A stretch of 42,183 bases of DNA from Anaerolineae bacterium (lineage in GTDB: Bacteria; Chloroflexota; Anaerolineae; JAADDB01), in contig WFWT01000071.1 of assembly GCA_015490995.1 (NCBI GenBank), positions 1-42,183 on the forward strand. Reading direction: 5' to 3'. How positions within the stretch are numbered: the first letter of the stretch is position 1; each line of letters begins with the position of its first letter. Positions 1 to 42,183 of the stretch are shown piece after piece. The position numbers and the translations under genes were made by a program. The notes under the pieces are model-generated. The model was not told where the DNA came from. It saw only the letters and a program-made list of their open reading frames with translations, and made no database searches.

Positions 1-511
1 CAGAAGGTGTGGGGGTGGGGGTGGGCGGTCGTGGGGTCGGGGCCGTACCCGTCGGCGGCGGCGTAGGGGACGGAGGGGCGGTAGGCGCGACCCCTGATAA
101 AGGAATGAAAATGCGATCCCCAACCCACATCCAGTCGTTGGGGTGAATAGCTTGAGGGTTCAAGCGTTTCAGCACACGCACCGAAACGCCGGTGCGCAGG
201 GCCAGACCTAGCCAGGTATCGCCCGGTTGCACTACGTACCAGTACCCGCGCGTCTGTCGCACATCCCCGGTGGGGATCCAAATGCGCTCACCGACCCAAA
301 GCCAAAGGTTGGGTCGGATGGCTTGGGGATTGTTCGCCTGTAATACCCCGACCGGGATGCCGGTGCGGGCGGAGAGGGACCACCACGAATCGCCGGGTTG
401 AACGGTGTACCAGTAACCTTCACCTTGCTGCGCGTGCACGGGTGTGAGGAGCAGGGCCCCGAAAAGCACGACGACGGCGATGCTGATCCACGATGGACGG
501 GGCTTCTTCAT
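1..511 (-). CDS. Secreted LysM-domain protein, C-terminus cut by window edge
   Basis: A gene read from 511 leftwards that runs off the window. It starts with a signal peptide: MKKP, then a hydrophobic core ISIAVVVLFGALLL and a likely cleavage after VHA. Two tandem LysM modules of about 48 residues follow. Each opens with YWY.VQPGD and closes with VG(E/D)RI(W/F)IP; between them is the spacer TGDVRQTRG. A Pro/Thr-rich linker starts after the second module and continues past the edge. LysM modules bind N-acetylglucosamine polymers such as peptidoglycan, so the protein is probably extracellular and wall-associated. The ATG at 511 is preceded by GGGAGG at a 6-7 base spacing. Any effector domain lies beyond the window, so the enzymatic role is unknown. 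Confidence 0.85.
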   Translation of the reverse strand, partial: MKKPRPSWISIAVVVLFGALLLTPVHAQQGEGYWYTVQPGDSWWSLSARTGIPVGVLQANNPQAIRPNLWLWVGERIWIPTGDVRQTRGYWYVVQPGDTWLGLALRTGVSVRVLKRLNPQAIHPNDWMWVGDRIFIPLSGVAPTAPPSPTPPPTGTAPTPRPPTPTPTPS

Positions 512-654
512 TGTACGCCTCCCATGTGTGTCACCAACCCGCTGCTTGGTGCGGGGGGCCGGCTAACAAAGTGCAGGTTCACCTCTGTCCCGTTCACCGG
601 CCCGTCCACGCATTTCCACAGAGGCCCTGTTAAGGAAGCCTCCCGGTTATGTGG

Positions 655-684
655 ATTATACTGTGGACCGGGAGGAGTTCCCAA
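655..684 (-). promoter_or_regulatory. Sigma-70-type promoter for the LysM gene
   Basis: On the minus strand, TTGGGA (679-684) and a perfect TATAAT (655-660) are separated by 18 bases. It lies between the SOD terminator and the LysM start and would give a leader of about 135 bases. Inferred from sequence only. Confidence 0.6.
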
Positions 685-739
685 GTCCCTTGGGGGGGAC
701 GGTTGTTCCTGTCGAGAGATAGACGTGGGGCGTGTAACA

Positions 740-771
740 AACAGCTGCGCCCCAAGGGGGGCGCAGCTGTT
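740..771 (-). terminator. Hairpin terminator after superoxide dismutase
   Basis: A perfect 14-bp stem (740-753 with 758-771) closes a 4-base loop. On the minus strand it is followed by a short T-rich stretch (TTTGTTA). It lies about 30 bases past the SOD stop codon, so it fits an intrinsic terminator with a weak U-tract. Confidence 0.75.
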
Positions 772-802
772 CCATGGGAGGGCACCGAAAACCTCAGCGG
801 CC

Positions 803-1417
803 TCATTTCCGTGCGGCCGCGAAGCGGCGGGCCACTTCTTCCCAGTTCACAACATTCCACCAGTTATTGACGTACTCCGCTCGGCGGTTCTGGTATTTCA
901 AATAGTAGGCGTGCTCCCACACATCCAGACCCAGGATGGGGGTAAAGCCGTCCATGTACGGGCTGTCCTGGTTAGGGGTGGAGTACACCCGGAGTTTGCC
1001 AAAACCGTCCACCACCAGCCAGGCCCATCCGCTGCCGAAGCGGGTCATGGCAGCTTTCGTAAAGGTTTCCTTGAACGCGTCAAAACTGCCAAAGGCAGCG
1101 TTGATGGCAGCGGCCAACTCTCCGGTCGGTGCCCCCCCACCGTTGGGTGTCATGACGGTCCAGAACAGGCTGTGGTTGGCATGGCCGCCGCCATTGTTGC
1201 GCACCGCGGTGCGGATGTCCTCCGGCACACTTTGGATGTTGCGCAACAGGTCCTCCACACTGTAAGTTTGAAGTTCCGGGTATTTCTCCAGGGCCGCGTT
1301 CAGGTTGTTCACGTACCCTGCGTGATGCTTGGTGTGGTGGATAGTCATGGTCTGCTCATCAATGTAAGGCTCCAGAGCGTTGTACGGATAAGGCAGGCTG
1401 GGCAGTTCAAAGGCCAT
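803..1417 (-). CDS. sodA: Superoxide dismutase, Mn/Fe family
   Basis: This 204-residue protein has normal family length and no signal peptide, so it should be cytoplasmic. It converts superoxide to oxygen and hydrogen peroxide. The four metal ligands are visible: His27 (in TIHHTKHH), His82 ([11 protein letters not shown]), Asp165 and His169 (DVWEHAYY). The N-terminal helical hairpin is followed by the C-terminal alpha/beta domain with the NNWWNVVNW ending. GGGHANH together with NQDSP around residue 150 favours a manganese or cambialistic enzyme, but the metal cannot be fixed from sequence. The start is set by AAGGAGG five bases or so before ATG. It is monocistronic, with its own promoter at 1514-1542 and a terminator at 740-771. 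Confidence 0.97.
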
Positions 1418-1513
1418 GGGACACCTCCTTCATTGCACAGGGTTGGGAGAAACGCCTATCATGCCACGCCGGCGAGTGCAGGCGAGGGCCAGTGACGTCT
1501 GTCCACCGTGTTC

Positions 1514-1542
1514 ATTATAGGAGCTTCCTTTGCCGGCGTCAA
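1514..1542 (-). promoter_or_regulatory. Near-consensus promoter for superoxide dismutase
   Basis: On the minus strand, TTGACG (1537-1542) and TATAAT (1514-1519) are separated by exactly 17 bases. The predicted start near 1507 leaves a leader of about 90 bases. I see no obvious operator palindrome around it. Confidence 0.8.
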
Positions 1543-1629
1543 TTTGAGCAACGATCATGCTGTTAAAACCGATGTGAGGTGGATAGGAGCGTGAGCCCAA
1601 GAGCGCGGGTAAATTTTTATGAAGCGCAT

Positions 1630-1657
1630 TTGACAAATTGGGGGGATTGGGTAAGAT
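1630..1657 (+). promoter_or_regulatory. Promoter for the SAM riboswitch operon
   Basis: A perfect -35 TTGACA (1630-1635) and a -10-like TAAGAT (1652-1657) are separated by 16 bases. It lies just before the riboswitch aptamer and diverges from the SOD promoter about 90 bases away. Confidence 0.65.
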
Positions 1658-1688
1658 AGGGGACTAACAACTGCATATGGGGACTGAC

Positions 1689-1826
<138 letters not shown>

Positions 1827-1846
1827 TCGTCAGCGCACATGTTGAC

Positions 1847-1873
1847 AAGCCTCTTCCAGAAAGAGGCTTTTTT
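1847..1873 (+). terminator. Riboswitch-controlled intrinsic terminator
   Basis: A 9-bp stem (1847-1855 with 1861-1869) with loop CCAGA runs into six Ts (1868-1873). The competing antiterminator is visible: bases 1811-1819 pair perfectly over 9 bp with 1852-1860. That helix uses the 3' strand of P4 and the first bases of the P1 3' strand, so it cannot coexist with the SAM-bound aptamer. SAM binding should therefore allow termination. Confidence 0.93.
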
Positions 1874-1908
1874 CATGCCGGCCCTCCCCAGCGAGCAAGG
1901 AGGGCCAC

Positions 1909-3147
1909 ATGTTTTCTAAGGGGGATCACGTGATGGACAAGATAGCTACCGAGCGCACGAAATCGCGGTTGGGGACTCAGGTGGTGCACGCGGGGGAACC
2001 GCGACAGAACCCGTACGGGAGCATCACCGTGCCCATTGTGCAGACGGCGGCGTACACCTTTGCCGATACCGATGCGCTTGAGCAATTCATGGCCGAGCGC
2101 ATGTTCTGGGATAAACCCGAATTCCAGGAATATGGCCGATATGGCAACCCGACCGTCCGAGTGGTGGAGGAAAAACTGGCCGTGCTGGAAGGGGGGGAGG
2201 AAGCCATCCTCCTCTCGTCCGGTATGGCCGCCATTACGTTGGCGCTCCTTATCCTGTTGCATCCGGGCGATCACCTCGTCATCACCTCAGACCTGTACCG
2301 TCGCACCCGCACGTTCTGTCACACGTTTCTCAAGCGCTGGGGGGTGGAGATCAGCGTTGTGCCGCCGGGCGACCTGGAAGCGCTGGAGGCGGCCATCTGT
2401 CCCCGAACCCGCTTCATCTTCTCGGAGATTCCCACGAATCCTTTCCTCCACGTGATCGACCTCGAACAACTCGTTGCCATTGCCCGCCGCCATCAAGTGT
2501 ACACCATTGTGGATAGCACCTTTGCGACTCCCTGCAATCTCAATCCTCTTGCTTACGGTGTTGACCTCGTTGTTCACAGCGTGACCAAGTATCTTGCCGG
2601 TCACAATGATTTGCTGGCCGGGGTCATTGTCAGCAGCAGCGACTTGATGACTCCTCTGCGTGAAGCTCAGGCCATGTTCGGTGCTGTGGTCGACCCTTCG
2701 GCGGCCTATTTGATCCTGCGCGGCCTGAAGACGCTGGCCCTCCGAGTGGAGCGACAGAACGCGACGGCAATGACGGTGGCGCAGTACTTGGAAACCCATC
2801 CCCGGGTGCGCCGAGTGTGGTATCCCGGTTTGCCCTCCCACCCCGACCACGCGGTCGCCCGACGGCAGTTGCGCGGTTTTGGTGGGGTGGTGTCTTTTGA
2901 AATTGACGGCACCGGGGAGGAGACCCGGCGCTTTGTGGACGCGTTGCGCATTCCTCGGCTGGCGCCTAGCCTGGGAGGTGTGGAAAGTTTGGTCACTATC
3001 CCGGCTCTCATGAGCTTTTATGACGCCTCCCCGGAAGAGCGCGCGGCATTGGGCATTACGGACCAGCTGGTTCGTCTGTCGGTCGGGATCGAGGACCCAG
3101 AGGACCTCTTGGCCGACATTGAGCAAGCCCTGGCCCAGTTGGACTGA
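1909..3147 (+). CDS. PLP-dependent trans-sulfuration / sulfhydrylase enzyme (cystathionine gamma-synthase family)
   Basis: A 412-residue Cys/Met-metabolism PLP enzyme. The PLP lysine is K227 in [13 protein letters not shown]202 (VDSTFATP) contacts the pyridine ring. GRYGNPT around Y78 and SSGMAA near 103 are the cofactor phosphate and dimer-contact motifs, and VRLSVGIED near the end carries the carboxylate-binding arginine. The family includes cystathionine gamma-synthase, O-acetyl/O-succinylhomoserine sulfhydrylase, cystathionine lyases and methionine gamma-lyase, and motifs alone do not separate them. The SAM-I riboswitch in front and aspartate kinase behind argue for a biosynthetic step toward homocysteine. 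ATG 1909 is chosen because AGGAGG lies six to seven bases upstream; an in-frame ATG at 1933 has a weaker site. Confidence 0.93.
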
Positions 3148-24528: not shown

Positions 24529-25086
24529 TTAGTCCGGTGCAGGAAAGGAGGCGCTTGCCCTTTGGAAGAGGGCTATCACTTCGGCAGCGACTTCTTCTAC
24601 ACTTTTGCCTGTGGTGTCCACGTGATAGGGTAGGGCTTCATAAGCGGGTCGTCGGCGGGCCAGCAGCGTTTTTAAAGTCATTTCCCAATCCGAATGCGCC
24701 AGGAGGGGGCGGTCGGTTTGTCCACGTAGGCGGGCGATAAGGGTCGCCTCGTCGGCCCACAGGCAAATGACGATGCCGGTACGGGTTAGCAATGTGCGAA
24801 GCGCGTCGTTCACCAGGGTACCGCCACCGGTGGCGATCACCAGCCCATGCCGGGCAGCCAGTTCCTGCACCAGGGCTGCTTCCAACGCACGGAAATACAT
24901 TTCCCCTTCTTGGGCGAAAATATCCGCGATAGAGCGCCCTTCCCGTGCGGCGATGAGCGCGTCCATGTCCACGAAGGGGCGCTGTAGCCGAGCTGCGACG
25001 AGACGGCCCACCGTGCTTTTGCCCGTTCCCATGAAGCCGGTGAGAATCAGGTTGAGGTCCTTCGCTGCTCCTGATTGGGCGCCCAT
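24529..25086 (-). CDS. aroK: Shikimate kinase
   Basis: A 185-residue P-loop kinase that phosphorylates shikimate at the 3-hydroxyl in aromatic amino acid synthesis. Walker A is GFMGTGKST (17-25). FVDMDALI (Asp40/Asp42), Arg66 in YFRALEA and ATGGGTLV (85-92) form the shikimate site. LRGQTDRPLL carries the LID arginine. The start overlaps the end of the aldehyde oxidoreductase gene by 40 bases, so the two are translationally coupled. Other aromatic pathway genes are absent from the window. Confidence 0.96.
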   Translation of the reverse strand: MGAQSGAAKDLNLILTGFMGTGKSTVGRLVAARLQRPFVDMDALIAAREGRSIADIFAQEGEMYFRALEAALVQELAARHGLVIATGGGTLVNDALRTLLTRTGIVICLWADEATLIARLRGQTDRPLLAHSDWEMTLKTLLARRRPAYEALPYHVDTTGKSVEEVAAEVIALFQRASASFPAPD

Positions 25087-26921
25087 GCTTCTAACCCCAG
25101 GCGTTTCAAGGTCTCCGGCAGGGGAAAGCCGGTGTTTTCATCCCAGCCGCGGACCCGGTAATACAGGGTAAGCAGGGTGTCTATGTCGGGCACGTAACCG
25201 GCACTGTGCCCTCGTGTGAGTGGACGTTGCAACATCTTGGGCAGTTGGTCGTCCTCGCGCGTCATGCCCAGGCGGTAGTTGAGCAGTCGTTTAAGGGTGT
25301 AGATCCGTTCGCCCGCCTGTGCCACGTCTTCCACGGTCCAATCCCAGCCGGTGACGGCATTGAGCAGTGCGACCAAACCCTGCGCGGTGACATCTTCGAA
25401 GTGACATAGGATCACGGAGTTAGTAAACGCGCGATAGTCCATCACCCGAGCGGTGACGCGTGCTTTCTCCTCCGAGATCTCCCACCGGTCACCGGCGGTG
25501 ATGCCCAACTCGGGTACCTCTCGCCCGGTATCCACGTGGTACATGTCGCCGGACATGTGGTCCGCGCCTCGAGGTGCGGTGGCGTATACCAGGGCCATGC
25601 CGCTAAACGCTCGAGGATCGTGGTAAGGGACTTCCAGGCCCTTGACGTGGACGGCCAGTTCCGGCACACCCAGCGTTTCCGCTGCTCGTTTCACCCCTTC
25701 GGCCAGGACATCGCCAATGCCCTCGCGTCGTGCGATCTTTTCCACCAGTTGAATTGCGGCCCGGCTGTTCCCCCAAGACAGATCCAGCCCGTCCACATCG
25801 TTGGGCTTGAGGATCCCTTCGTTGTACAGGTAAAAGGCAAAGGCCACTACGGCCGAGGTGGATATCGTGTCCAGACCGTATCGGTTACACAGGTGTCCGG
25901 CATAGGCGGCGTCGGCCAGGTTGTCGGCACCGATCATGAAGGAGAACCCCACCGCGGTCTCGTACTCCGGGCCATCCACGTGAGGTTCGTCGTATTCGGG
26001 CAGGCGAATTTCTCGCCCACAGGCGATGGGACAGCGGTAGCAAGGTACGTGTTTAAGCAGGTACAGGTCGGTAAGCGCAGGCGCGCTGACGTTCTGGACC
26101 CAGGGTTCCACGTCCCCTTCCGTGTAATACCGGCCAGGCACGTCCCCATACATGGCCCCGACTTCGGTGTAGAGGATAGTCCCGCCCAGGCGGAGCATCT
26201 GGGTGTAAAGGTCATCAATGACAAAACGCATGGTACGCCGTAAGATGTCCCGGAAGGACTCAGGGTGAGCGATGGGGACTTTGGCGTTACCGTGGACCAC
26301 AATGGCCTTCAAGCCTTTGCTGCCCATCACCGCACCCAGCCCGGTACGCGCTGCTGCTCGGCCGTGGTCGTTCATGATAGCCGCGTAACGGACACGTCGT
26401 TCGCCGGCGGGGCCGATGGTGGCGATGCGGGCCTTAGGCAACCCCAGTTTCTCCCGCAGGTACGCCTGGACCCGATACGTGTCCATACCGCCGATGTGAG
26501 GCATTTCCACCAGGCGGGCGTGTCCGTTGTCGATGACCAGTACGACCCAAGGGTCTGCTTGGCCGGTGATAAAGATACCGTCATACCCTGCAAAGCGAAG
26601 TTCTGGTCCCCAGAAACCTCCGCTGTTGGCCTCACCGACGAGGCCGGTCAGGGGAGAGCGAGCCACAACACTGTAGCGGCCGGCCGCGGGGATAGGCGTG
26701 CCCACGAAAGGGCCGGTCATGAAAATAAGGGGCGCTTCTGGAGCATAAGGATCCGGTGGGGGGGTTAGGAATTCTCCCAGCAGGCGGGCACCCAACCCGG
26801 AACCGCCCACAAACTGGTAAGCCATCTCCGGATCGAGAGGAATCTCTCTCAGTGTCCCTGTGGAGAGGTCCACATGGAGCCAACGTCCCATATATCCACC
26901 GTTGTATTTTGCGGGCTTCAT
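25047..26921 (-). CDS. Aldehyde:ferredoxin oxidoreductase (tungsten/molybdenum bis-pterin)
   Basis: A 624-residue cytoplasmic enzyme of usual family length. It would oxidise aldehydes to carboxylic acids with ferredoxin. The N-terminal domain has RWLHVDLSTGTL and GGSGLGARLL; GEANSGGFWGPELRFAGYDG binds pterin. The [4Fe-4S] cysteines are C294, C297, C301 (CYRCPIAC) and C506 (ILCHFED). DGPEYETA near 316-323 carries the catalytic glutamate. VKGLEVPYHDPRA (427-437) is a second pterin-side motif. Substrate range cannot be assigned. It lies 44 bases after the FemAB-like gene and overlaps aroK, suggesting read-through from the polysaccharide operon. Cofactor synthesis genes are not in the window. A start at M11 is an alternative. 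Confidence 0.95.
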   Translation of the reverse strand: MKPAKYNGGYMGRWLHVDLSTGTLREIPLDPEMAYQFVGGSGLGARLLGEFLTPPPDPYAPEAPLIFMTGPFVGTPIPAAGRYSVVARSPLTGLVGEANSGGFWGPELRFAGYDGIFITGQADPWVVLVIDNGHARLVEMPHIGGMDTYRVQAYLREKLGLPKARIATIGPAGERRVRYAAIMNDHGRAAARTGLGAVMGSKGLKAIVVHGNAKVPIAHPESFRDILRRTMRFVIDDLYTQMLRLGGTILYTEVGAMYGDVPGRYYTEGDVEPWVQNVSAPALTDLYLLKHVPCYRCPIACGREIRLPEYDEPHVDGPEYETAVGFSFMIGADNLADAAYAGHLCNRYGLDTISTSAVVAFAFYLYNEGILKPNDVDGLDLSWGNSRAAIQLVEKIARREGIGDVLAEGVKRAAETLGVPELAVHVKGLEVPYHDPRAFSGMALVYATAPRGADHMSGDMYHVDTGREVPELGITAGDRWEISEEKARVTARVMDYRAFTNSVILCHFEDVTAQGLVALLNAVTGWDWTVEDVAQAGERIYTLKRLLNYRLGMTREDDQLPKMLQRPLTRGHSAGYVPDIDTLLTLYYRVRGWDENTGFPLPETLKRLGLEAWAPNQEQRRTST

Positions 26922-26965: not shown

Positions 26966-27982
26966 TTATTTACGCCGCAGGCGACGCCAAAGCGTATAGG
27001 CGGCGCGGCTGACCCAAAGACGCCAAGGGTGGTGTACACGTGTGCTGCGCCCGTAATTTACCTGGGTACCCCCGAATTTCGCTTTAAAATGGCGCACGCC
27101 GTATGGTTTGTCCGGGTGCCCTGCCCCCCCAAAGTCGAACGTATGGTAGCCCGCGCGGATGGCCCAGCGCAACACATACCATACCATGAAGTCGTTGGGG
27201 CGCAACCGTTGATGGGACGCCCGGTACGCTGCGTACCAATCCAGCACGGTGTCGCGATGAAGGAGGACGGCGCGAGCAGCCACGGGGGTGTTTTCGTGCC
27301 AGGCGAGCCAAAAGCGGGCTTGTCCGCACGGTACCAGCAGCCGGTGTGCTGCGGCAAAGAGTCCAAACGGGGCCAGGGGAACCCGAGCCCGGAGATACCC
27401 TTCCTGCATAATATCATACCAGATGGCCAGGTCGTCCGGCGTTTTGACCTCTCGGGCGACGAGCCCCTGCTTTTCGGCCCGTCGGATGTGCTGGCGCGCG
27501 TTGGGCTTCAATCGTTGCCAAACACCTTTCTCCCCATCTGTCAGGGAGATCAGGAAATTCAAATGGGGTTCCCAGCGGTAGCCCGTTGCGTTGAGCGCGG
27601 CCCGCCAGGGGCCGGGATCGGACATGTGACGTAGTTCGGTGAACAGCGCGATGCCGGCCCGACGGTTGTGCTCCTCAAGAAGCGCGCGCAGCGCGTCCTG
27701 TCCCCGGTCGCTCTCTTCGGCCAGGAAACCGCCGTACGCGACCACTCGAGTGGTCCAGCGGGCAGCGAGGCCTCCTTTCAGCGTGATTCGCACCGCGGTC
27801 AACAGGGCTACGGGACGGCCGTGGTCCGTCACTGCGGCCAGCAGGAGGGGGGTGTGTCCCTCTGCGCGCGCGAAGACTGCGTGCATGAGCGGGGTGTGGA
27901 AGATAGAACTTCGAGGATGGGAAGCCACAAATTCCTCCCACACCTGCTCGGGCAACTCGGTGACTACCCGCCATCGGCTCAT
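26966..27982 (-). CDS. FemAB-like / GNAT-fold acyltransferase of a polysaccharide cluster
   Basis: 338 residues that fit two tandem GNAT folds, as in FemAB/BioF2-like proteins. WQRLKPNARQHIRRAEKQGL near 160-178 is the diagnostic R..I..A...G segment, followed by AFYxxM-like WYDIMQEGYLRARVPL. VAARAVLLHRDTVLDWYAAY, NDFMVWYVLRWAIRAGYHTFDFGG and YGVRHFKAKFGG match the C-terminal half. Such proteins transfer an aminoacyl or acetyl group to peptidoglycan precursors or to surface glycans. Its position at the end of the glycan operon favours modification of the exopolysaccharide. ATG 27982 has GAGGG upstream and lies four bases after the previous stop. Confidence 0.85.
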   Translation of the reverse strand: MSRWRVVTELPEQVWEEFVASHPRSSIFHTPLMHAVFARAEGHTPLLLAAVTDHGRPVALLTAVRITLKGGLAARWTTRVVAYGGFLAEESDRGQDALRALLEEHNRRAGIALFTELRHMSDPGPWRAALNATGYRWEPHLNFLISLTDGEKGVWQRLKPNARQHIRRAEKQGLVAREVKTPDDLAIWYDIMQEGYLRARVPLAPFGLFAAAHRLLVPCGQARFWLAWHENTPVAARAVLLHRDTVLDWYAAYRASHQRLRPNDFMVWYVLRWAIRAGYHTFDFGGAGHPDKPYGVRHFKAKFGGTQVNYGRSTRVHHPWRLWVSRAAYTLWRRLRRK

Positions 27983-27986
27983 AGCG

Positions 27987-29264
27987 TTACCCTCGGGCTA
28001 ATCGGCTGAGAAAGTCCCACCAGGTGACCGCGTCCAGGTCGCCCGTGATGCACAGCGCACATCGGGCCCCGTCCGGCCAGGGCGCAATACGCACCAGCGG
28101 TGAGACGTGTGTGTGCACGCGGTGCCATACCTCGGCCTGCACCGCAGGGGTCCACGTGGGTGTGTCCAGCACTAGGGCCTGCTGACCGGTGGCGGGTTCT
28201 ACGATATACCCCGCGGCCCGTAAGGCTTCTACACCGGCTTGCGGTACTTGACCGGTTACCCCGATAGTGGGGCGCCGGGGGCTGTACAGGGTGACCTCTG
28301 GGCCTGGGACGTGGTACCAGTGGTCATCCCACCGTTCATGGCCTGGGGGCAATGTGGCGTTGACCAGCAGCGAAGCGTTCGCCAGGCCCTCCACTGTGAT
28401 GTGCCATCCCCCGTTGGTCGGTTGTACTTTGACCACCGCCTGGGCACGTGCCTGCCACCAGGCAGCAACCGCCTGCATGGTCGTGATCCATACGGGCGGG
28501 CGTAGCGTTCGGGCGGCAATTAACACCTGGCGGAGCGCATCCGCACAGGTGAAGAAGCGTTCGGGGTGCAATTGCAATACCAGCAACCCACCCTGCCGGT
28601 GTGTAGTGGTGAGCATGTGATGCCATACACCGGCAATAGCCGCCGAGTCACGCCACCCTAAGCGGTCGACCAGCATCTCATCATCCGGCAAGCTAACCGG
28701 AAGACGCAGGACACCCTGTTGTTGTACAGGATACAGCGGCCAGGGGGAGAGCGTCTGCGCGCCGTAGAAGAGCAGCACACGACGCATGCGTTGGTGTGCG
28801 AAGGTGTCCAAGGTCGGAACCGCGTCCCAGTAGACGGCCAGGCTGCTGTCGTACACGTTGATCTCGCGCAGGGCCTCCAGCAGGGTGGGGTTCCAGCGCA
28901 GGTAAGGCGCGCGGAAGCCGTGTACAGGTAGGCCATGGGCCCGGAAACGTGCTACCGCTTGCCGGATATGACGGCGTTGTTCTTCAGGGGAAAGGGCCTG
29001 CATATCCACATGCACATCTCCATGAATGGCAATTTCAGCCCCCTGCGCGTGAAGGTAAGCGATGAGGCGTGGATGACGGGTCACCACCGTGGCGGGTGTA
29101 GGGAAGGTGGGGCGTACGTCGAAGTCGGCCAGCAGGTTCAGGTAGGCTGTCAGTGTGCGGGCCATGCGGGTTTCGGTGGGCCCCAGCTGGCGGGCAATGG
29201 CCATACCTCGTTCCCAGGCTGTACGCCAGCCTTTGGACACCAGCAAATGTTTAAGGTAGCTCAT
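27987..29264 (-). CDS. NodB-type polysaccharide deacetylase with apparently permuted motif order
   Basis: 425 residues. A NodB-like core lies in residues about 35-270: VRPTFPTPATVV; HGDVHVDM with His81 and His85 as metal ligands; GFRAPYLRWNP (117-126); and VLQLHPERF with His233. The usual first motif with paired aspartates is missing before residue 35. A matching segment, ALCITGDLDAVTWWDF with Asp409 and Asp411, is instead at the extreme C-terminus. Residues 275-395 form an additional domain of unknown fold. The predicted role is removal of N- or O-acetyl groups from the cluster's glycan. ATG 29264 has GGAGG six bases upstream and overlaps the Alg13-like gene's stop by 14 bases; two other ATG/GTG-like starts up to 29285 are less favoured. 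Confidence 0.8.
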   Translation of the reverse strand: MSYLKHLLVSKGWRTAWERGMAIARQLGPTETRMARTLTAYLNLLADFDVRPTFPTPATVVTRHPRLIAYLHAQGAEIAIHGDVHVDMQALSPEEQRRHIRQAVARFRAHGLPVHGFRAPYLRWNPTLLEALREINVYDSSLAVYWDAVPTLDTFAHQRMRRVLLFYGAQTLSPWPLYPVQQQGVLRLPVSLPDDEMLVDRLGWRDSAAIAGVWHHMLTTTHRQGGLLVLQLHPERFFTCADALRQVLIAARTLRPPVWITTMQAVAAWWQARAQAVVKVQPTNGGWHITVEGLANASLLVNATLPPGHERWDDHWYHVPGPEVTLYSPRRPTIGVTGQVPQAGVEALRAAGYIVEPATGQQALVLDTPTWTPAVQAEVWHRVHTHVSPLVRIAPWPDGARCALCITGDLDAVTWWDFLSRLARG

Positions 29265-29823
29265 CGACATCCTCCGGGCGCACACGTCGGCCTCGATAGC
29301 GTTTGGCTACCACGTGTGGATCCTTGCCCTCAGCGAGCAGGCGAAGGTACTGGTCTACGATCAGGTGTATGGCCAGGGGAGGCATGGTGAAAGGCACCAG
29401 GGGAGTGGTGCGCGCGCGGTGAATAGCGTCCCCCAGCCGGGCCAGATCTCGACACCAGATGAGGTGCCCCCGCGCGCTCAGATGGCTAAGCAGGTCCTCT
29501 TGGTGCTGGTCGGGGCGGTCGGGATTATCCACGCTGACCAGGGGGATGCCGCGGTGTAAGACCTCGATGGTAACGCCAATGCCCCCGTGGGCGACCACTA
29601 CCTGCGCGTGTTCATAGTATGGGTCCAGGCTGGGCGCGTGTCGAAACCAGCGCGCTTGGACCGGTACGTACCGACCAATGCCGATTTGCATAATTACCGG
29701 CAGATCCAGGCTCGGCGCCAACCGGTCCATGGCCTCAATGAGTGGGTCAAAGTCCCCCGAGCCTACCGTGACGAAGATGATAGGACCATCAGGTTGGGGA
29801 AGTAAGTTGTTTTGGTATGTCAT
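29251..29823 (-). CDS. Alg13-like glycosyltransferase subunit (GT28 C-terminal domain)
   Basis: 190 residues representing only the nucleotide-sugar-binding half of a GT-B enzyme. IIFVTVGSGDFDPLIEAMDRL near the start and VVVAHGGIGVTIEVLHRGIPLVSVDN are the Alg13/GT28 signatures; HQ.DLL.HLS closes the donor site. In eukaryotes Alg13 acts with membrane-anchored Alg14 as one enzyme; bacterial exopolysaccharide clusters carry the same split pair. The partner lies eight bases upstream. ATG 29823 is chosen from GAGG six bases upstream; the longer frame to 30030 only shadows the partner gene. Confidence 0.9.
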   Translation of the reverse strand: MTYQNNLLPQPDGPIIFVTVGSGDFDPLIEAMDRLAPSLDLPVIMQIGIGRYVPVQARWFRHAPSLDPYYEHAQVVVAHGGIGVTIEVLHRGIPLVSVDNPDRPDQHQEDLLSHLSARGHLIWCRDLARLGDAIHRARTTPLVPFTMPPLAIHLIVDQYLRLLAEGKDPHVVAKRYRGRRVRPEDVDELP

Positions 29824-29830
29824 TGTATCC

Positions 29831-30346
29831 TCACCCGTGGAGCAGTCCGGCAAAGATCGCATCCGGAAATACGTGTTCCTGTAACTCGGGCCACTGGACG
29901 AAAAACAGGTCCGCTCGGCCGTACATCCACCGACCGGTGCGGGAGGGATGTCGGACGCGTGCACCGTTTTCGACGTAAATAATATGCGCCCCCAGGAGCT
30001 TTTTGGCCAGTAGGGCGGCGGGCACGGCAAGCCCAGGACCGGAATGCATGACCACGTGTGGCCGCACCCGGAGCACGATCCAGAGGGATTGCCACGTTAA
30101 CCGCAGGTAGCGTAGGACGACCTTCCATGTGGGTTCTACCTTCCACTGGGGGCGGTTGCACCGATACACGGGACCGGGAATGCGAATTTTTTGTTCGCTG
30201 AGTTGCTCCTCTTTCACCACCATATACGCGTATTCGTACTTCGGTCCCAACAGGTCTACCAGGCGGATCATCTCCACCGTATGGCCGCCTTCTCCCAAAA
30301 TGACCAGTACACGGAGACGGGTAGGCTGGGTAGGTGGATGGTTCAT
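29831..30346 (-). CDS. Alg14-like membrane-anchoring glycosyltransferase subunit
   Basis: 171 residues, the acceptor half of a split GT-B enzyme. LVILGEGGHTVEMIRL (13-28) is the Alg14 glycine loop. PHVVMHSGPGLAVPAALLAKKLLGAHIIYVENGARV and GRADLFFVQWPEL match the family; LVHSGPG-type sequence near 100 is characteristic. Alg14 proteins bring the catalytic partner to the membrane and position the lipid-linked acceptor. The ATG overlaps the preceding GT4 gene's stop (ATGA). Together with the next gene it should make one functional transferase. Confidence 0.9.
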   Translation of the reverse strand: MNHPPTQPTRLRVLVILGEGGHTVEMIRLVDLLGPKYEYAYMVVKEEQLSEQKIRIPGPVYRCNRPQWKVEPTWKVVLRYLRLTWQSLWIVLRVRPHVVMHSGPGLAVPAALLAKKLLGAHIIYVENGARVRHPSRTGRWMYGRADLFFVQWPELQEHVFPDAIFAGLLHG

Positions 30347-31326
30347 TGTTTCCTCTCCAACACACGTTCGTACACGGCTTTCACCCGCCGAGCGGTAGCT
30401 TCCAGGGAAAGGTGTTGCACACGATGACGACCGTCTGTACGACGTCCGAACTGCAAGGCCTGGGCAATCGCTGTGGCCGTTCCTTCCACCGTTCGATCAC
30501 AGAAATAACATCCTGCAGTGTCGCCGATGACCTCCCGAGCGTCACCCAGGTCACCTGTGACAATCGGTAAGTTGCACGCCATGGCCTCTTTAATGACCAT
30601 CGGTGATCCTTCGGCTTCGGACACGAGCACCAGCACGTCTGCCGCGTTCATGTACAGGGGGATGCGGTCGTGTGGTTGGCCGGAAGCGATCACCAGCTCT
30701 ACAGGCCACCCCTGGGCCTGCAGTTGGGCCACTGCCGCTTCGATGACCCATATCCGTTTGTCCGGACGACGTTGCCCCACAAAGAGCACGAGCTGTCGGT
30801 CCATGGGTAGATTTAACTTCGCCCGCGCGGTCTGTTGGTCCATGGGACGGAATAGGTTTAAATCCACACCTGGCGGGATAATGGCGTCTACTCGGGTGCC
30901 TAGGTGTTCGGCCACCCACCGGCTGGTCACAATAATGCCGTCGGCCAGGCGGGCCAGCACTTTGGACAGCGGTGCAGTAAAGGAAATGGCCACCTCATTG
31001 CCGTGGAAAGTCACCACTAGGGGTTTGCTCCACTGGACCCGTGCTACCACCCCGGTGAGCGCGTAGTGGGCGTGTATTAGGTGATACGGACGAGCTCGTA
31101 CCTGGCGCCAGAATGCGGGCAAGGCTAGAAAGTAGTGGGCGCGTTGGGACCGACCGTCCACATAGAACACGTCGACGCCCACACCTAAAGAGCGCAAGGC
31201 GCGCACCTCATCGTACACAAAGGTGCCAAAATCCTCAGCCCCGGGATGAGGATACATGTTGGTCACCACCAGAACTCGTAAAGTCGCTTTGGGCAGTGCC
31301 GGGTCCGGAAAGAACCGATACGCCAT
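30343..31326 (-). CDS. Glycosyltransferase family 4
   Basis: About 327 residues. LRVLVVTNMYPHPGAEDFGTFV is the N-terminal strand and loop; HLIHAHYALTG, FHGNE and ADGIIVTSRW match GT4 acceptor domains. FVGQRRPDKR carries the donor-phosphate Arg/Lys, and the E-x7-E motif is EGSPMVIKE, followed by AMACNLPIVTGDLGD. The start is uncertain: ATG 31326 begins just before conserved sequence but has a poor ribosome site. The alternative ATG 31398 adds 24 low-similarity residues and overlaps the previous gene. The stop overlaps the Alg14-like start. Confidence 0.85.
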   Translation of the reverse strand: MAYRFFPDPALPKATLRVLVVTNMYPHPGAEDFGTFVYDEVRALRSLGVGVDVFYVDGRSQRAHYFLALPAFWRQVRARPYHLIHAHYALTGVVARVQWSKPLVVTFHGNEVAISFTAPLSKVLARLADGIIVTSRWVAEHLGTRVDAIIPPGVDLNLFRPMDQQTARAKLNLPMDRQLVLFVGQRRPDKRIWVIEAAVAQLQAQGWPVELVIASGQPHDRIPLYMNAADVLVLVSEAEGSPMVIKEAMACNLPIVTGDLGDAREVIGDTAGCYFCDRTVEGTATAIAQALQFGRRTDGRHRVQHLSLEATARRVKAVYERVLERKQ

Positions 31327-31381
31327 TGTCGCTGTGCTTGTCCCCTGCTCGTGTAGAGTTTTATCAGACCATGTTAACCTC

Positions 31382-32533
31382 TTAGGTTTTCCGGGCATGA
31401 AACCTGGCCATCACCTCCCGGTAAACGGCCACATGGCGGTGTGCTAAGGGCGTGGGATGAAAGCGTTGACGGGCTTCTGTGCGCGCAAGTTCGCCCATCT
31501 TTAAGGCACGGGAGGGATCGGCCAGCGCGTCTTGGAGCGTCGCGGCGAGCACATTCACGTCCTCCGGAGGGACCAGCCAACCTGTCCGTCCGGGCGTAAT
31601 CATGTAGGGAACGCCGCCCACGGCCGTGGCTACTACCGGGCGGCCCGCTGCCATGGCTTCCGCGATGACCACAGGTGCTGTCTCCTGCAAGGAGGGTAGC
31701 ACAACCACTTGGGCACGCCCGTACGCGTCGCGAAGGCGGGAGCGGTCCAGCGGTCCAAGGAAGCGCACACGGGATGCCAATCCCCACCGGTGGACTTCGG
31801 CCTGACAGGCAGCTGCGTACCGGGGGAAAGAGACGGTTTCGCCGGCAATGTCCAGTCGTGCGGTGGGGTCGTTGGATGCCACTTGGGCAAACGCGCGGAT
31901 AAGGGTCAGGATACCTTTGCGGGGAATCACCCGTGCTACGCAGAGTATTTGTCCGGGCACCATGGCCGTAGAGGGCACGTGAAAGTAACCGGGGTGTACG
32001 GGATTCTCTATGGGATGTAACCGCGCTTGGAGCCAGGGATATGCTTCACGCAAGTAAGGGCTGATGGCGATCACCTCTTTGCTGCGGGCCAACACCCAAC
32101 GTTCAAACCACCGGTCCACCTCCCGGGCCAATCGTCTGCGCCATCCCCACACGGTGGGCGCTTCCCGGGCCATAATGCCGTGGACGGTGATCACGTGGGG
32201 AAAGGGTGAAGTGACCGCGGCGGCTGTGTACACGTCTGACCCGTGCGCGTGTACGATATCGGGCTGCAGTTTCACCAACGCGGCCCGTAACCGTCGGATG
32301 CCCCGCCAGTGCCAGGTGAGGCGTCCATACCGGGGCTGTGGCAGGACGGTCACCGTCACCTGGCCCTCGGTGTGTTGTGTAGGTGTGTCTATGTCCGGCC
32401 GCAACGTCAGCACGTGTACTTCAAGCTCATCCATCTTGGCGAGCGCCTGGGCAAGCAGGTAGGTCACCGCTTCCACCCCGCCCAGCACCTGTTGGGGGTC
32501 TCGTGGGTACAGGCCAAGGATCGCCACACGCAC
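31382..32533 (-). CDS. Glycosyltransferase family 4
   Basis: A 383-residue GT-B enzyme. LGGVEAVTYLLAQAL (17-31) is the N-terminal glycine loop. PDIVHAHGSDVYTAAA and VHGIMAREAP are acceptor-side motifs. CVARVIPRKG carries the donor phosphate site, and ETAPVVIAE supplies the E-x7-E motif before AMAAGRPVVATAVGG. The start is GTG 32533, three bases after the ligase gene's stop, with GAGGG upstream. It adds a sugar to the cluster's lipid-linked unit; the donor is unknown. Confidence 0.9.
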   Translation of the reverse strand: MRVAILGLYPRDPQQVLGGVEAVTYLLAQALAKMDELEVHVLTLRPDIDTPTQHTEGQVTVTVLPQPRYGRLTWHWRGIRRLRAALVKLQPDIVHAHGSDVYTAAAVTSPFPHVITVHGIMAREAPTVWGWRRRLAREVDRWFERWVLARSKEVIAISPYLREAYPWLQARLHPIENPVHPGYFHVPSTAMVPGQILCVARVIPRKGILTLIRAFAQVASNDPTARLDIAGETVSFPRYAAACQAEVHRWGLASRVRFLGPLDRSRLRDAYGRAQVVVLPSLQETAPVVIAEAMAAGRPVVATAVGGVPYMITPGRTGWLVPPEDVNVLAATLQDALADPSRALKMGELARTEARQRFHPTPLAHRHVAVYREVMARFHARKT

Positions 32534-32536
32534 CGG

Positions 32537-34039
32537 TTATCCCTCGCCCCTGGCACGCGCGTGGGTGTGGGCCATGTAGCCAAGAATGCTGCCCATCAGA
32601 GTGTAAAAGACAATGTTGCTGTACTGGGCGGGGTCCGCGTCGATGGTAGCAATGATGGTCACGTAGCCCACGAGAGCGGCCAGGGCTACCACGGCCCAAC
32701 CGCTACTGGCATCCCGGTGGGTGTTCAATCCCAGGGTAGAGCGCCACAGTCCTTCGGAACGGCCCTCTACCTCTCGCCACAACTGGCGGTAACGGGTGGT
32801 CATCTCCCGTATCATGCCTGCCAGCATAAGGACATAGCCGCCCAGGGCGAACACGCCGGCCTGAGCAAGAATGCCCACAAATGTGTTGTGTGGTAAGGGC
32901 ATCCACTTATCGTCGTACTTCTCAAAATACCCCCGTTGCAACGTAATGGGCCCGTAATTGGGATACCCGATGCCCCACAGAGGGGATTCTCGCCACAATT
33001 GAAGGGCGATATCTGTGGTGCGAACACGTGCAGTCAGCGAGCCCTCATAGCTTAATCGGTAGCGATACAACTCGGTTTGAGTGAATTGTGACCAGGTGAG
33101 GGCCAAAAGGAGACCGCCGCTTATCACCCCGGCCAGAAATATTCGGCGCCAGCGAGGAAACCGCACGGCCAACACCATCATGACCAGAAAGGCGGCCAAG
33201 TATCCGGCCCGGCTGTACAGGAAAACGATGGTGACTACAACGATGGCGGTGTACAGCAGGTACCCCAAGGCCTCCCAGCGGTGTTGGCTGCGCACAAAGC
33301 GGTAGATGGCGATGGCCAGTACCACCGTCATAATGGCCGCGTGGTACACCGGGTTGCCGAACAGCGCGGTCACCCGACGGAGCGTGCCCACGTACAGGAT
33401 AGAGCGCCCCCACGGATAGAACCAGATGCGCCCTCCGAGTGATTCGCCCAGCGCCAGAAACGCCACGTATCCACCTACCACCAGAAGGGCGTTCAAGACA
33501 AGCTGCAGCCGTCGTTCGTCTTGGACCATAATACGGGTGAAAAAGTACGCGCTGAGTGGTATCACGTACGCGTCGAACGCGGTTTGCAGTGCAGGGACCA
33601 TACCCTTGAGGGCCATACGGGTGGCCTGTAACATCCCCACCAAGAAGAGCACCATGCCCACTTCGGTCCATCCCAGGGGCGGGAGAGGGCGACGGCGCGC
33701 AGCCAGCTCGGCGAGCAGCACAACGCCGACCACCAGCGTGCCCGTGCGGACCAGGCTAAGGTCCGGGATGCCGACCCCCATGGCGAGGTTGAAGTTCCAA
33801 AAGGGCGCGAAAGGTGCGAGGACAAGCCAGAAGAGAAAACCCGCCAGGGGATTCAAAAAGGCGAGCATGGCAGTAAATCCCTGAACCACCAGGGCTACGG
33901 TGCGCTCCCAGCCCCGTTGGGAGAACACGTTGACCAGCCAGAGGCCCGCCGCGATGGCCAAGGTGGCCTGCAACAGCAGTCCTGCTATGCGGACCCCTAC
34001 GGCGCGTGCATCGCCCAAGGTAGTGAGGGGGTTCGGCAT
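32537..34039 (-). CDS. O-antigen ligase / Wzy-type polymerase family membrane protein
   Basis: About 500 residues with 11-12 predicted membrane segments and one large outer loop at roughly 335-400. That loop contains RESPLWGIGYPNYGPI and the signature PHNTFVGILAQAG with the key His, typical of the Wzy_C/WaaL superfamily. The superfamily either polymerises repeat units or ligates glycan to an acceptor at the outer membrane face; sequence does not tell which. In a cluster with a Wzz-like protein, polymerase is a natural reading. ATG 34039 follows the previous gene's stop by 13 bases; the longer frame from 34129 runs inside that gene. Confidence 0.87.
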   Translation of the reverse strand: MPNPLTTLGDARAVGVRIAGLLLQATLAIAAGLWLVNVFSQRGWERTVALVVQGFTAMLAFLNPLAGFLFWLVLAPFAPFWNFNLAMGVGIPDLSLVRTGTLVVGVVLLAELAARRRPLPPLGWTEVGMVLFLVGMLQATRMALKGMVPALQTAFDAYVIPLSAYFFTRIMVQDERRLQLVLNALLVVGGYVAFLALGESLGGRIWFYPWGRSILYVGTLRRVTALFGNPVYHAAIMTVVLAIAIYRFVRSQHRWEALGYLLYTAIVVVTIVFLYSRAGYLAAFLVMMVLAVRFPRWRRIFLAGVISGGLLLALTWSQFTQTELYRYRLSYEGSLTARVRTTDIALQLWRESPLWGIGYPNYGPITLQRGYFEKYDDKWMPLPHNTFVGILAQAGVFALGGYVLMLAGMIREMTTRYRQLWREVEGRSEGLWRSTLGLNTHRDASSGWAVVALAALVGYVTIIATIDADPAQYSNIVFYTLMGSILGYMAHTHARARGEG

Positions 34040-34052
34040 CGTAATCTTCACC

Positions 34053-35285
34053 TCACCCTCCGAACACCGTTTCATAAATGTCCATGATGTGGCGAGCTGT
34101 GTCGCGAGCCTGAAAGCGGCGTGCCACATCAGCGCGGGCTGCTGCTCCCATACGTCGGGCCCGTTCTGGATGGCGTAGCAGTTCCACTATCGCGTTGGCC
34201 AGGGCGTTCGGATCGCCCTGGGGGACGAGGTAGCCGGTTTCACCATGACGCACAATCTCCACCGGTCCGCCTCCTCGGGTTGCCACGACCGGTCTGCCCG
34301 CAGCCATCCCTTCCACGATTACCCGGCCAAAGGGTTCATCCCGCAGCGAGGCGTGAACCAGCACGTCCACCAGCGCGTACAGGCGCAACGCGTCCTCCCG
34401 ATGCCCCAGAAACCGTACCTGTTCTGCCAACCCGAGCCGGCGGGCAAGGGCTTGTAACGCTTGTTGATAGCCCCGATCGGCCACCTCTTCACCGCCAACC
34501 ACTATCACTTGCACGTCGGGTATGGCCGCTGTAACCTGGGTCAGCGCGTGCAGAAAGACTTGGTGTCCCTTCCACTCCGTCAACCGACCGAACATCCCTA
34601 TCCGGGGGCGTTGGGGGTCCAACCCCAGCGCCCGAAACAGCTCAGGCTCGGCTTCGGTGGGGATTTCCTCCATATCTACCCCATTGTACACCACATAAAT
34701 GGCCGTGTCACGCAGCCCCTGTGCCTGCAAACAGCGCGCTACGGCCTGGGAGATGCACACGAATGCCCGCACGGAACGGGCCAACCAGCGGTCCCATAGG
34801 TCCCATTGTTCCCACCCCCGCACGTGGCACAAGGTGGGACGGCCGGTCCAGCGGGCGGCCAGGGCTGCCGGTCGGTTGACTACCAGCTCCGCGTTTAAAT
34901 GAATGATGTCCGGTCGTACCTCATCGATGACTCGACGGATACGGCGTGCTTCGGGCCAGAAACGTCGGTACCACCGCCCTATATTGCCTCCCGCGTGCCA
35001 GATGCGCGCTAGGCGCGGGTGTTGCCGAATCCAGGCGCCGAACCGTCCCCGGCGTATTCGGTCGACGCGTGGGCCAAAGCTAACCCCTTGACCTTGTTGG
35101 GTAGTGAGGGTATAGACAGACACCTCCAGGTGTTGGAACCGGGTCACGTATGGGTTTCCCTGGGCTAGGAGGATCACCGGTTCATAACGACGGCGGTCCA
35201 GGTGACGGATCAAGTACCATAAGCTGACCACCGAGCCACCTGGAGTGGGTGCCAGGTCAATGTAAAGCACCCGGCGTGGGGTCAT
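34053..35285 (-). CDS. Glycosyltransferase family 4
   Basis: A 410-residue GT-B enzyme. LAPTPGGSVVSLWYLIRHL (11-29) is the N-terminal loop. VYNGVDMEEIP, MFGRLTEWKGH and the E-x7-E motif in DEPFGRVIVEGMAAGRPVVATRGGG mark the donor domain. An Arg/Trp-rich segment around residues 85-120 is an unusual insertion and may contact the membrane. ATG 35285 has AGGAG five bases upstream and overlaps the Wzz-like gene's stop as ATGA. Confidence 0.9.
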   Translation of the reverse strand: MTPRRVLYIDLAPTPGGSVVSLWYLIRHLDRRRYEPVILLAQGNPYVTRFQHLEVSVYTLTTQQGQGVSFGPRVDRIRRGRFGAWIRQHPRLARIWHAGGNIGRWYRRFWPEARRIRRVIDEVRPDIIHLNAELVVNRPAALAARWTGRPTLCHVRGWEQWDLWDRWLARSVRAFVCISQAVARCLQAQGLRDTAIYVVYNGVDMEEIPTEAEPELFRALGLDPQRPRIGMFGRLTEWKGHQVFLHALTQVTAAIPDVQVIVVGGEEVADRGYQQALQALARRLGLAEQVRFLGHREDALRLYALVDVLVHASLRDEPFGRVIVEGMAAGRPVVATRGGGPVEIVRHGETGYLVPQGDPNALANAIVELLRHPERARRMGAAARADVARRFQARDTARHIMDIYETVFGG

Positions 35286-36487
35286 AGGGTCTCCTGCCGT
35301 GGGTGGGATGCTGCCACGGGTCGGCGTAGGAGGTGTGTGACAACTTCCAACGCCAGGGCCAACACAATGCCCAACAAGAGGGCGACGAACGCGCCGTACA
35401 GCACGTACCGTGCTATCGGTCGAGGGGCACGGGTGACCGGCTCGCGTTCGCCTTCGATGATCTGGAGGTAACCGCTGCTCAACGCAAGTTCCTCTTTTGT
35501 GCGGGCTTCGTTCAGTTTATCAACCAGGAATGCGTACTGGTCCTCTGCCATTCGGATATTCAGCGTTAGGCGTTGATATTCGTTCTGGAGGCCGATCAGT
35601 TCGGCCAAGCGGGTCTGGTACTGGGCAATCAGGCGATCGTATTCGTCCACGCGCGCCCGATGACCTGCGGCGAGCGCGTCTTGGGCAAGGGCTTCGGCCT
35701 CGAGGGAACGAGCTTGGGCTTGCGTCGCGGTGGCTTCGTCTTCTTGGCCCGCGGCAGCGAGGGTCGTCGCTTGCTGGCGGAGGCGGGTAGCTTCCTGACG
35801 ATACGCCCGGGCCAGCGCTTGGGCCTGTTCGGCAGCCACCTGGGCTCGGTCCCGCTCTAGCATGAGTGCCCGGATTTGATCCTGCAGCGCGGTGGCTTCA
35901 CGGTCGATATCGGTCAGGTTGTACTTAAGCCGAAAGTCGCGCAGTTGTTGGCGGGCTGCGTTAACCGCTTCTTGTTGTTCCACTACTTGCTTTTCCAGAA
36001 AGATGCGGGTGGCCGTGACGCTGCGAGTGCGCATCGAACGATAAAAGGCCAGGGCTTTGGCAATGTGTACCTCGGCCATGCGACGGGCAAGGGTGGCCGA
36101 CGGAAGGTTGCGGTACACGACAATAACGGTTGTTCCCTCAATGCGGGGCCACATGGCTTCCAGGATGTCATCTGCCGTCAGGCTGGTGCCCAACTCGTCG
36201 TTCAGCGTGGAGGCGGTATCCCAGGCAACATCCCGGTTGCGGAGGACGTCGATGAACTCTACCCCGATACGAACTTTGGCTTCATCGCCGGTGGGTTGAC
36301 GTACACGGGTGAACAGCGCGACGTCCTCGGGTTCCACAAGCAACGCTTGCAGACGCACGGTGGCTTGATAGTGCACGGGTTGAGAGGCTACCGTGTAGTA
36401 AATGCCTCCCACCGTTACCGTCACCAGCAGCGCAATTAGCCACAGTCGTTTCAGGATAATCTGAACGTATGGCTTCAAAGAATCCAT
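35282..36487 (-). CDS. Wzz-like polysaccharide chain-length determinant (PCP family)
   Basis: 401 residues with the polysaccharide co-polymerase layout: a membrane helix near 14-33, a long extracytoplasmic part, and a second helix near 368-390. The outer part begins with a Wzz-type domain and continues as an Ala/Gln/Glu-rich coiled coil, about 160-330. The segment YQRLTLNIRMAEDQYAFLVDKLNEAR before the second helix is typical of the GNVR region. It has no cytoplasmic tyrosine kinase domain. It should set the length of the polymer made by the Wzy-like protein. An extended -10 promoter upstream may add expression of the downstream genes. Confidence 0.88.
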   Translation of the reverse strand: MDSLKPYVQIILKRLWLIALLVTVTVGGIYYTVASQPVHYQATVRLQALLVEPEDVALFTRVRQPTGDEAKVRIGVEFIDVLRNRDVAWDTASTLNDELGTSLTADDILEAMWPRIEGTTVIVVYRNLPSATLARRMAEVHIAKALAFYRSMRTRSVTATRIFLEKQVVEQQEAVNAARQQLRDFRLKYNLTDIDREATALQDQIRALMLERDRAQVAAEQAQALARAYRQEATRLRQQATTLAAAGQEDEATATQAQARSLEAEALAQDALAAGHRARVDEYDRLIAQYQTRLAELIGLQNEYQRLTLNIRMAEDQYAFLVDKLNEARTKEELALSSGYLQIIEGEREPVTRAPRPIARYVLYGAFVALLLGIVLALALEVVTHLLRRPVAASHPRQETL

Positions 36488-41237: not shown

Positions 41238-42183
41238 CTATTCTGTCTCACCGTCCACAAAGGGGACCCCCCACCCGGCCGCGAGGAGGCGACCGAAGGC
41301 GAACACCCCCCTGGCCAGCGCGGTGACTCCGGTGACATCACGCCCCCGGGGAAGATCGCCAGGGTGCCATCCGGGAGCGCCAACGATGCCCGCATACGTT
41401 TCGGGGGACGCGATGGCCTGGCGCCACTGAATGTTTTTCCCGCCGGGAGGTGGCGTTGCCGTGGAAGCGTGGCTCGCGGCCTCGCGGGCTTTCACCTGGT
41501 TCTGGACGTAGGTTGGGTCGCTCCACTCGCCGGTCATTAACTGTTTCAGTTCCTCCAGTTCCAGGAGGAACACATCCTCACGTCTGTGAAGACGGCCATC
41601 GCTTTGCGCCTCTGTCGCCACTGCTAGGGTCCAGTGTCGACTGGCCGTGCACACCCAGGCTAGGGCGACGCGCGCGGTTTCACGCAGTTGCAACCAGGCG
41701 TTGACCCACGCCCACAGGTCCGCTCCTCGCTGTGCCGGGTCTGTGCTCTCGCCGGCCGCTTCCACCCGCGGGGTGGGGGAAGCGCGTTCTCCCCATCGTG
41801 GAGTGGCTACTTCGAAGACGGCGTCACTTAACCAGGGCCACCTGACCCCCAAATCCTCCCGTGTTATCGGGGTCGTCCTCGCGTCCAAGGCGTTCAGCGG
41901 GGCCAGGGAAGGAAGCGTGTGTACGTTCACGTGTTGGTACACGTAATCCGGTGTAGCCGACGGCAGGGCGTACAGAATGTCCGCCAGCGCGAGGGTGCTC
42001 GTGGCCAGAACGGCCAGGGCCTCCCCCGCGCGTACCGCGATTTCCTCCATCACCTGGAGGATTTCTGCCTGTTCCCAACGCAGACGCATGACCCGCCGTG
42101 CCCAGCGGGGTATCCGTTCCACTACCTGGATGGTTTCCTCGTACACGCGTTGCCATCGGTGATGAGGTGAGGTCGGGGGGAGG
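41238..42183 (-). CDS. Partial protein resembling PEP-synthase middle and C-terminal regions, possibly degenerate
   Basis: The frame stays open to the right edge, so the N-terminus lies outside; the GTG at 42146 is only an internal candidate. About 315 residues are visible. FEVATPRWGE (about residue 111 counted from 42146) and the later segment ETARVALAWVCTASRHWTLA...HRREDVFLLELEELKQLM resemble the linker of pyruvate, water dikinase (PEP synthase), where ELA.PRW.EDP and EDVFFLTLEEL occur. The last 70 residues end in GVFAFGRLLAAGWGVPFVDG, reminiscent of the swivel domain, but the catalytic T/S-x-x-H motif is not seen. It could be an inactive relative or a domain with another role. It ends 14 bases before the GT2 gene. 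Confidence 0.45.
   Translation of the reverse strand, partial: LPPTSPHHRWQRVYEETIQVVERIPRWARRVMRLRWEQAEILQVMEEIAVRAGEALAVLATSTLALADILYALPSATPDYVYQHVNVHTLPSLAPLNALDARTTPITREDLGVRWPWLSDAVFEVATPRWGERASPTPRVEAAGESTDPAQRGADLWAWVNAWLQLRETARVALAWVCTASRHWTLAVATEAQSDGRLHRREDVFLLELEELKQLMTGEWSDPTYVQNQVKAREAASHASTATPPPGGKNIQWRQAIASPETYAGIVGAPGWHPGDLPRGRDVTGVTALARGVFAFGRLLAAGWGVPFVDGETE

Follow-up and report, generated by a model that had tools for sequence, protein, structure and literature searches.

Only two topologies, NodB1 and NodB2, were distinguished when NodB domains of solved structure were surveyed in 2024 (PMC10967932). The five motifs run MT1-MT2-MT3-MT4-MT5 in NodB1, and MT5 stands ahead of MT1-MT4 in NodB2; PgaB and IcaB, which carry MT5 ahead of MT1-4, are circularly permuted CE4 enzymes (PMC7229062, PMC5855634), and the active site is spatially conserved in their permuted barrels (PMC5855634, PMC7229062, PMC10967932). 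Agd3 (CE18) was considered as a further precedent for permutation and rejected, since its motifs are in the usual order (PMC7229062).

We identified, in the window (the whole stretch of 42,183 nucleotides that was analysed), a deacetylase gene whose product follows neither order: its motifs run MT2-MT3-MT4-MT5-MT1, so that it departs from NodB1 in having MT1 last, and from NodB2 in having MT5 (232-235) after MT2 and MT3. Thus, whereas PgaB and IcaB have MT5 moved to the N-terminal side and lack MT4, this protein shares with them a permuted barrel, but has MT1 moved to the C-terminal side and retains an MT4-like pair. We found no description of the order MT2-MT3-MT4-MT5-MT1 among the open-access papers searched for permuted NodB/CE4 proteins; public predicted structures may already contain it unremarked.

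A deacetylase gene with MT1 near its C-terminus

The gene and its parts are as follows (all on the reverse strand):

27987..29264, permuted CE4/NodB deacetylase gene, 425 aa, stop included in the coordinates (start ATG at 29264, stop at 27989-27987)
28440..29162, NodB barrel from just past MT1, residues 35-275 (from hhalign against an ordinary CE4 profile, and the model superposed on 3rxz)
29010..29024, MT2, HGDVH, residues 81-85, with the presumed metal-binding histidines H81 and H85
28902..28913, MT3, RAPY, residues 118-121 (R118, P120, and Y121 identical in 51 of 51 members)
28677..28691, MT4-like LPDDE, residues 192-196, a second Asp pair (D194-D195) that is not MT1
28560..28571, MT5, LHPE, residues 232-235, with the presumed catalytic acid H233
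28098..28439, linker, residues 276-389, made up of a beta-rich portion and a small alpha/beta portion, with no Pfam match
27990..28097, C-terminal tail, residues 390-425, counterpart of beta1-alpha1 in the ordinary NodB barrel
28032..28046, MT1, TGDLD, residues 407-411 (D409 and D411 identical in 51 of 51 members)

An in-frame GTG upstream, at 29285, would lengthen the protein by seven residues if used. Membership in the CE4/NodB superfamily is indicated by sequence homology (PF01522; hhalign E ~1e-29). The Pfam match (PF01522, Polysacc_deac_1) spans residues 37-136 (E = 4.6e-12; 46.4 bits against a cut-off of 23.1) and covers no more than positions 20 to 120 of the 124 in the profile; nothing in the N-terminal part of the protein matches the opening stretch, to which the Asp motif belongs. 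Because this match begins at position 20, software that looks for an N-terminal Asp motif could call members of the family inactive or truncated.

A sequence-only reading of this DNA had placed HGDVH, RAPYLRW, and LQLHPE within residues 81-235 and CITGDLDAVT at 405-414, about eleven residues from the C-terminus, and these numbers are right: HGDVH lies at 81-85, RAPYLRW at 118-124, LQLHPE at 230-235, and CITGDLDAVT at 405-414, 11 residues ahead of the end (ITGDLD itself at 406-411). It had also taken CITGDLDAVT to be the only Asp pair, which needs correcting: D194-D195 in LPDDE is a second one, aligned by hhalign with the MT4-region Asp pair that follows ELPVSW in ordinary CE4 proteins.

We consider the protein to be a circularly permuted, probably active CE4/NodB deacetylase that takes its MT1 from its last 36 residues, a reading to which we give a probability of about 0.87. 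The barrel would start at the element equal to helix alpha1/strand beta2 of ordinary enzymes and run through MT2-MT5; the missing first strand and the base/metal Asp motif, MT1, would come from the last 36 residues; and this tail would re-enter the barrel past a dispensable linker, placing D409 and D411 beside H81 and H85.

Distribution, conservation, and loss of the linker

Full-length homologues occur in several Chloroflexota classes: 30 of the 396 genomes sampled from the window's class have one, as do 35 of 400 drawn phylum-wide (the two samples overlap), and there are others. The name of the phylum is taken from a single locus of the window's own family, labelled Anaerolineae. The permuted family was sampled in Chloroflexota, and wider genome contigs were scanned with a single sequence only. 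Scans of viral contigs yielded ordinary CE4 proteins and no permuted member; the plasmid search gave partial matches only (coverage of at most 58%), and the five regions inspected all have an N-terminal MT1. No member was returned by the phage search, a weak one because its query was an approximate consensus of the barrel half and not a real member.

The family set comprises 56 non-redundant Chloroflexota members, 51 of them full-length and used for the conservation figures. The sequence-only reading had called for a search for homologues with the same order, and all 55 members whose C-terminus is present (of 55) keep MT1 last: [ST][GS]DxD is found near the C-terminus in 55 of the 56, and the exception, L043, lacks it because its contig ends just before the motif. 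Neither DD nor DxD occurs within the first 45 residues of any of the 56, and the window's own protein has no ordinary Asp motif in its first 60; such a motif would have spoken against permutation. The close homologues are themselves permuted; the topology is therefore a property of the family. In one clade (L104-L107, L109, and L134) SSDID replaces [ST]GDxD in MT1, followed by VTIQDFFLR. In L037 the permuted deacetylase and the upstream GT4 glycosyltransferase share one open frame of 860 aa (208-2787, forward strand), either as a true fusion or as two genes in frame. The member in L049, an assembly of seven contigs, is split over several frames, which probably reflects faulty sequencing and not a gene split in nature.

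The linker, some 115 residues long, had been described in the sequence-only reading as a domain of unknown fold separating the two pieces of the enzyme. It has no Pfam match, and a search of the PDB with a linker profile gave nothing below E = 0.04; as a part of the enzyme, though, it is dispensable, being missing from two homologues. In these two, L046 and L047, a stretch of roughly 10-20 residues is all that separates the last barrel helix from the WP of the tail, which both keep; in L045 the linker is shortened. Among the proteins examined, none combined the ordinary motif order with the linker. A maximum-likelihood tree places L047 as sister to the linker-bearing L031 (support 100/98), and L046 elsewhere in the clade of L047, at a fork drawn open. 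Since the two linker-less members are not sisters in this tree, the linker appears to have been lost on at least two branches; most likely it was lost twice, with MT1 staying C-terminal. As judged from these sequences, the linker is dispensable and the tail is not. Such natural linker-deleted variants make both the permutation and the function of the linker directly testable.

The linker-less members also bear on whether each chain completes its own active site. The tail of one subunit could fill the beta1 slot of another by domain swapping, giving active sites built from two chains: the linker, which is long, poorly conserved, and in part modelled with low confidence, could let the tail reach a neighbour, and cis and trans completion are indistinguishable from sequence data. 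We think this improbable, since L046 and L047 keep the tail with so few residues between it and the barrel, and insertion in cis needs no swap, because in a closed NodB barrel the last strand and the first have their ends side by side. A related idea, which we regard as unlikely, is that the MT1 tail is detachable or exchangeable, and that the site forms on docking, either within one chain (in cis), with the linker in control, or between the chains of a dimer (in trans); if this were so, the protein would be a naturally split, conditionally assembled deacetylase.

Catalytic motif residues (MT1, MT2, MT3, and MT5) are present throughout and identical in 50-51 of 51 members. The residues invariant in all 51 are H81, H85, R118, P120, Y121, D195, D409, D411, D417, and R421; D194 is identical in 50, as is H233, for which the remaining residue is masked. 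Mean column entropy is lowest in the tail (1.36 bits, versus 1.87-1.94 in the barrel and 2.17-2.56 in the linker). This pattern is hard to reconcile with the protein being a pseudoenzyme left by a tandem duplication, in which the tail would be the dead start of a lost second copy and the first copy would have lost its own start. Circular permutations commonly arise when a gene is duplicated and the product then loses sequence from each end, and such a history would fit the absence of any ordinary N-terminal MT1; but a dead remnant would not be expected to be the most conserved region, with D409, D411, and the other catalytic residues invariant across several Chloroflexota classes, and we give this explanation very little weight.

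Alignment of the tail to ordinary enzymes and the predicted structure

The circular permutation suspected from the motif order in the sequence-only reading is supported by alignment: the tail aligns to the ordinary N-terminal MT1 segment, and moving it to the front produces one continuous alignment. Comparison with 3rxz by phmmer gave the two pieces in swapped order, query residues 386-413 matching chain residues 10-36 (weak by itself) and query residues 41-142 matching chain residues 67-170. With a template built from nine ordinary CE4 proteins, the best hhalign alignment pairs residues 35-274 with template positions 50-285 (E = 1.2e-29), and the second pairs residues 394-417 with positions 8-31 (E = 3.7e-5), over 24 columns that include the WPxG lead-in; both E-values refer to one pairwise comparison. 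When residues 390-425 were set before residues 1-275, the hhalign score rose from 213.9 to 240.0 (243.3 without the first 15 residues). By comparison, eight linker segments not reaching the tail core gave 213.7-214.7 in the same placement, and 100 column-shuffled tails gave a mean of 213.0 (sd 0.5; maximum 216.9). A chance likeness of the C-terminal Asp motif to MT1, with the metal Asp lying elsewhere, for example in the conserved pair D194/D195 within the barrel region, is scarcely credible: alignment pairs D194/D195 with the MT4-region Asp residues of ordinary enzymes, and shuffled tails come nowhere near the match of the real one.

Covariation (APC-corrected mutual information; 51 sequences, Neff of 44) gave some tail-barrel pairs (402-228, 402-55, and 410-56); the windows for beta2 (ranks 41-109 of 383) and beta8 (ranks 155-299) do not stand out.

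The AlphaFold model of the deacetylase (pLDDT 83.3; pTM 0.78) gives both the barrel and the tail with confidence. The tail is predicted to form a strand (402-408) and a helix (411-424), with block-mean pLDDT of 84-94 over residues 401-425; values in the linker are 73-83 to about residue 330 and mostly 44-67 over residues 331-389. Superposing a predicted structure on a NodB barrel had been put forward in the sequence-only reading, and residues 1-276 of the model superpose on 3rxz with Z = 21.1 (rmsd of 2.7 over 229 residues), so that, as a predicted model, the protein has the NodB barrel fold. The same barrel is found in the NodB1.2 CE4-like proteins 3rxz, 3qbu, 1z7a, 3s6o, and PuuE (3cl6), which match the model from residue 1 or 10 to residues 275-276 with Z of 20.5-21.1. 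The WPxG lead-in and the DxD form of MT1 are common to 3rxz and the permuted deacetylase; however, NodB1.2 proteins have MT1 first and no linker between MT5 and MT1, whereas here MT1 is last and a linker is present. Salmonella ArnD has a NodB1-like fold (Z = 16.1 to the model), and the NodB1-like domain described for it has the ordinary topology, unlike that of the permuted deacetylase (PMC10967932).

The input alignment for AlphaFold combined P0001 and L021 with segments of ordinary CE4 proteins taken from viral contigs, and had only two full-length family rows. In it, MAFFT had put the N-terminal MT1 peptide of an ordinary protein, L163, on the tail MT1 (38% identity). Because the alignment holds one such short peptide and two full-length family rows, the placement of the tail is partly AlphaFold's own prior. 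A fold from the single sequence had a pLDDT of 40 and was not used. Taken as a circularly permuted enzyme, the deacetylase represents a conserved MT1-last family that would add a third arrangement to the two surveyed NodB topologies, well supported by sequence and moderately by structure prediction.

Gene neighbourhood and a proposed role

The deacetylase gene lies in a polysaccharide cluster, with the following neighbours (all on the reverse strand):

26966..27982, FemAB-like (GNAT-fold) transferase gene, next downstream (PF13480, E = 4.5e-21; PF02388, E = 2.2e-12)
29251..29631, PssE-like glycosyltransferase gene, overlapping the deacetylase start (NF041548, E = 3.1e-16, below cut-off)
29831..30346, PssD/Alg14-like glycosyltransferase subunit gene (PF08660, E = 3.4e-25)
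30343..31398, GT4 glycosyltransferase gene
31382..32533, GT4 glycosyltransferase gene
32537..34129, O-antigen ligase/Wzy-like polymerase gene (PF04932, E = 8.8e-17)

The FemAB-like gene starts four bases past the deacetylase gene, and the order PssD-PssE-deacetylase recurs in L145, L147, and L148. Of about 60 genomes examined, 15 have a strongly matching FemAB-like gene as the downstream neighbour of the deacetylase gene, no more than 260 bases away. In three further loci its place is taken by a hexapeptide (left-handed beta-helix) acyltransferase gene: in L147 (9251-9883) it overlaps the end of the deacetylase gene, and in L151 (9405-10505) and L154 (6158-7249, both in reverse-complement coordinates) it lies beside it. 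The deacetylase gene thus seems to keep company with an acyltransferase gene of one kind or another.

Hydropathy (at most 0.9 over 19 residues) points to neither a signal peptide nor a membrane helix in the deacetylase, and since it has no hydrophobic leader, we infer a cytoplasmic site. Together with the polysaccharide cluster and the FemAB-like or hexapeptide neighbours, this suggests deacetylation in the cytoplasm followed by modification of the amine: the deacetylase would likely de-N-acetylate an amino-sugar precursor of an exopolysaccharide, exposing an amine that the neighbouring FemAB-like transferase would acylate or aminoacylate. We hold this functional proposal less firmly than the topology, because in most family members the FemAB-like gene is not adjacent. 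The gene context is polysaccharide synthesis and not the purine breakdown that would go with an allantoinase of the PuuE class (allantoin as substrate, metal-free).

A similar coupling of deacetylase and transferase has been proposed for the Caulobacter holdfast, with the cytosolic deacetylase HfsH and the FemAB-like GNAT transferase HfsK working on one and the same polysaccharide (PMC5362036); we compared HfsH by its published description. The hfsK gene of C. crescentus is not part of the hfs locus, and Hirschia baltica is unaffected when hfsK is lost (PMC8449245). XrtA/PEP-CTERM systems likewise have a deacetylase (TIGR03006) and a FemAB partner (TIGR03019) in a polysaccharide cluster. The genes studied here match both profiles only weakly, far below cut-off: the deacetylase scores 41.5 bits against a cut-off of 276 for TIGR03006, in a match that leaves out the MT1 end of the profile, and the FemAB-like gene scores 81 bits against a cut-off of 260 for TIGR03019.

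Two long ORFs of the polysaccharide cluster, at 35282-36487 and 41238-42146 of the window (both reverse strand), have no Pfam match, and relatives of the first occupy the same place in L145, L147, and L148. At the edge of the cluster, directly after the FemAB-like gene, there is an aldehyde ferredoxin oxidoreductase gene (25047-26921, reverse strand).
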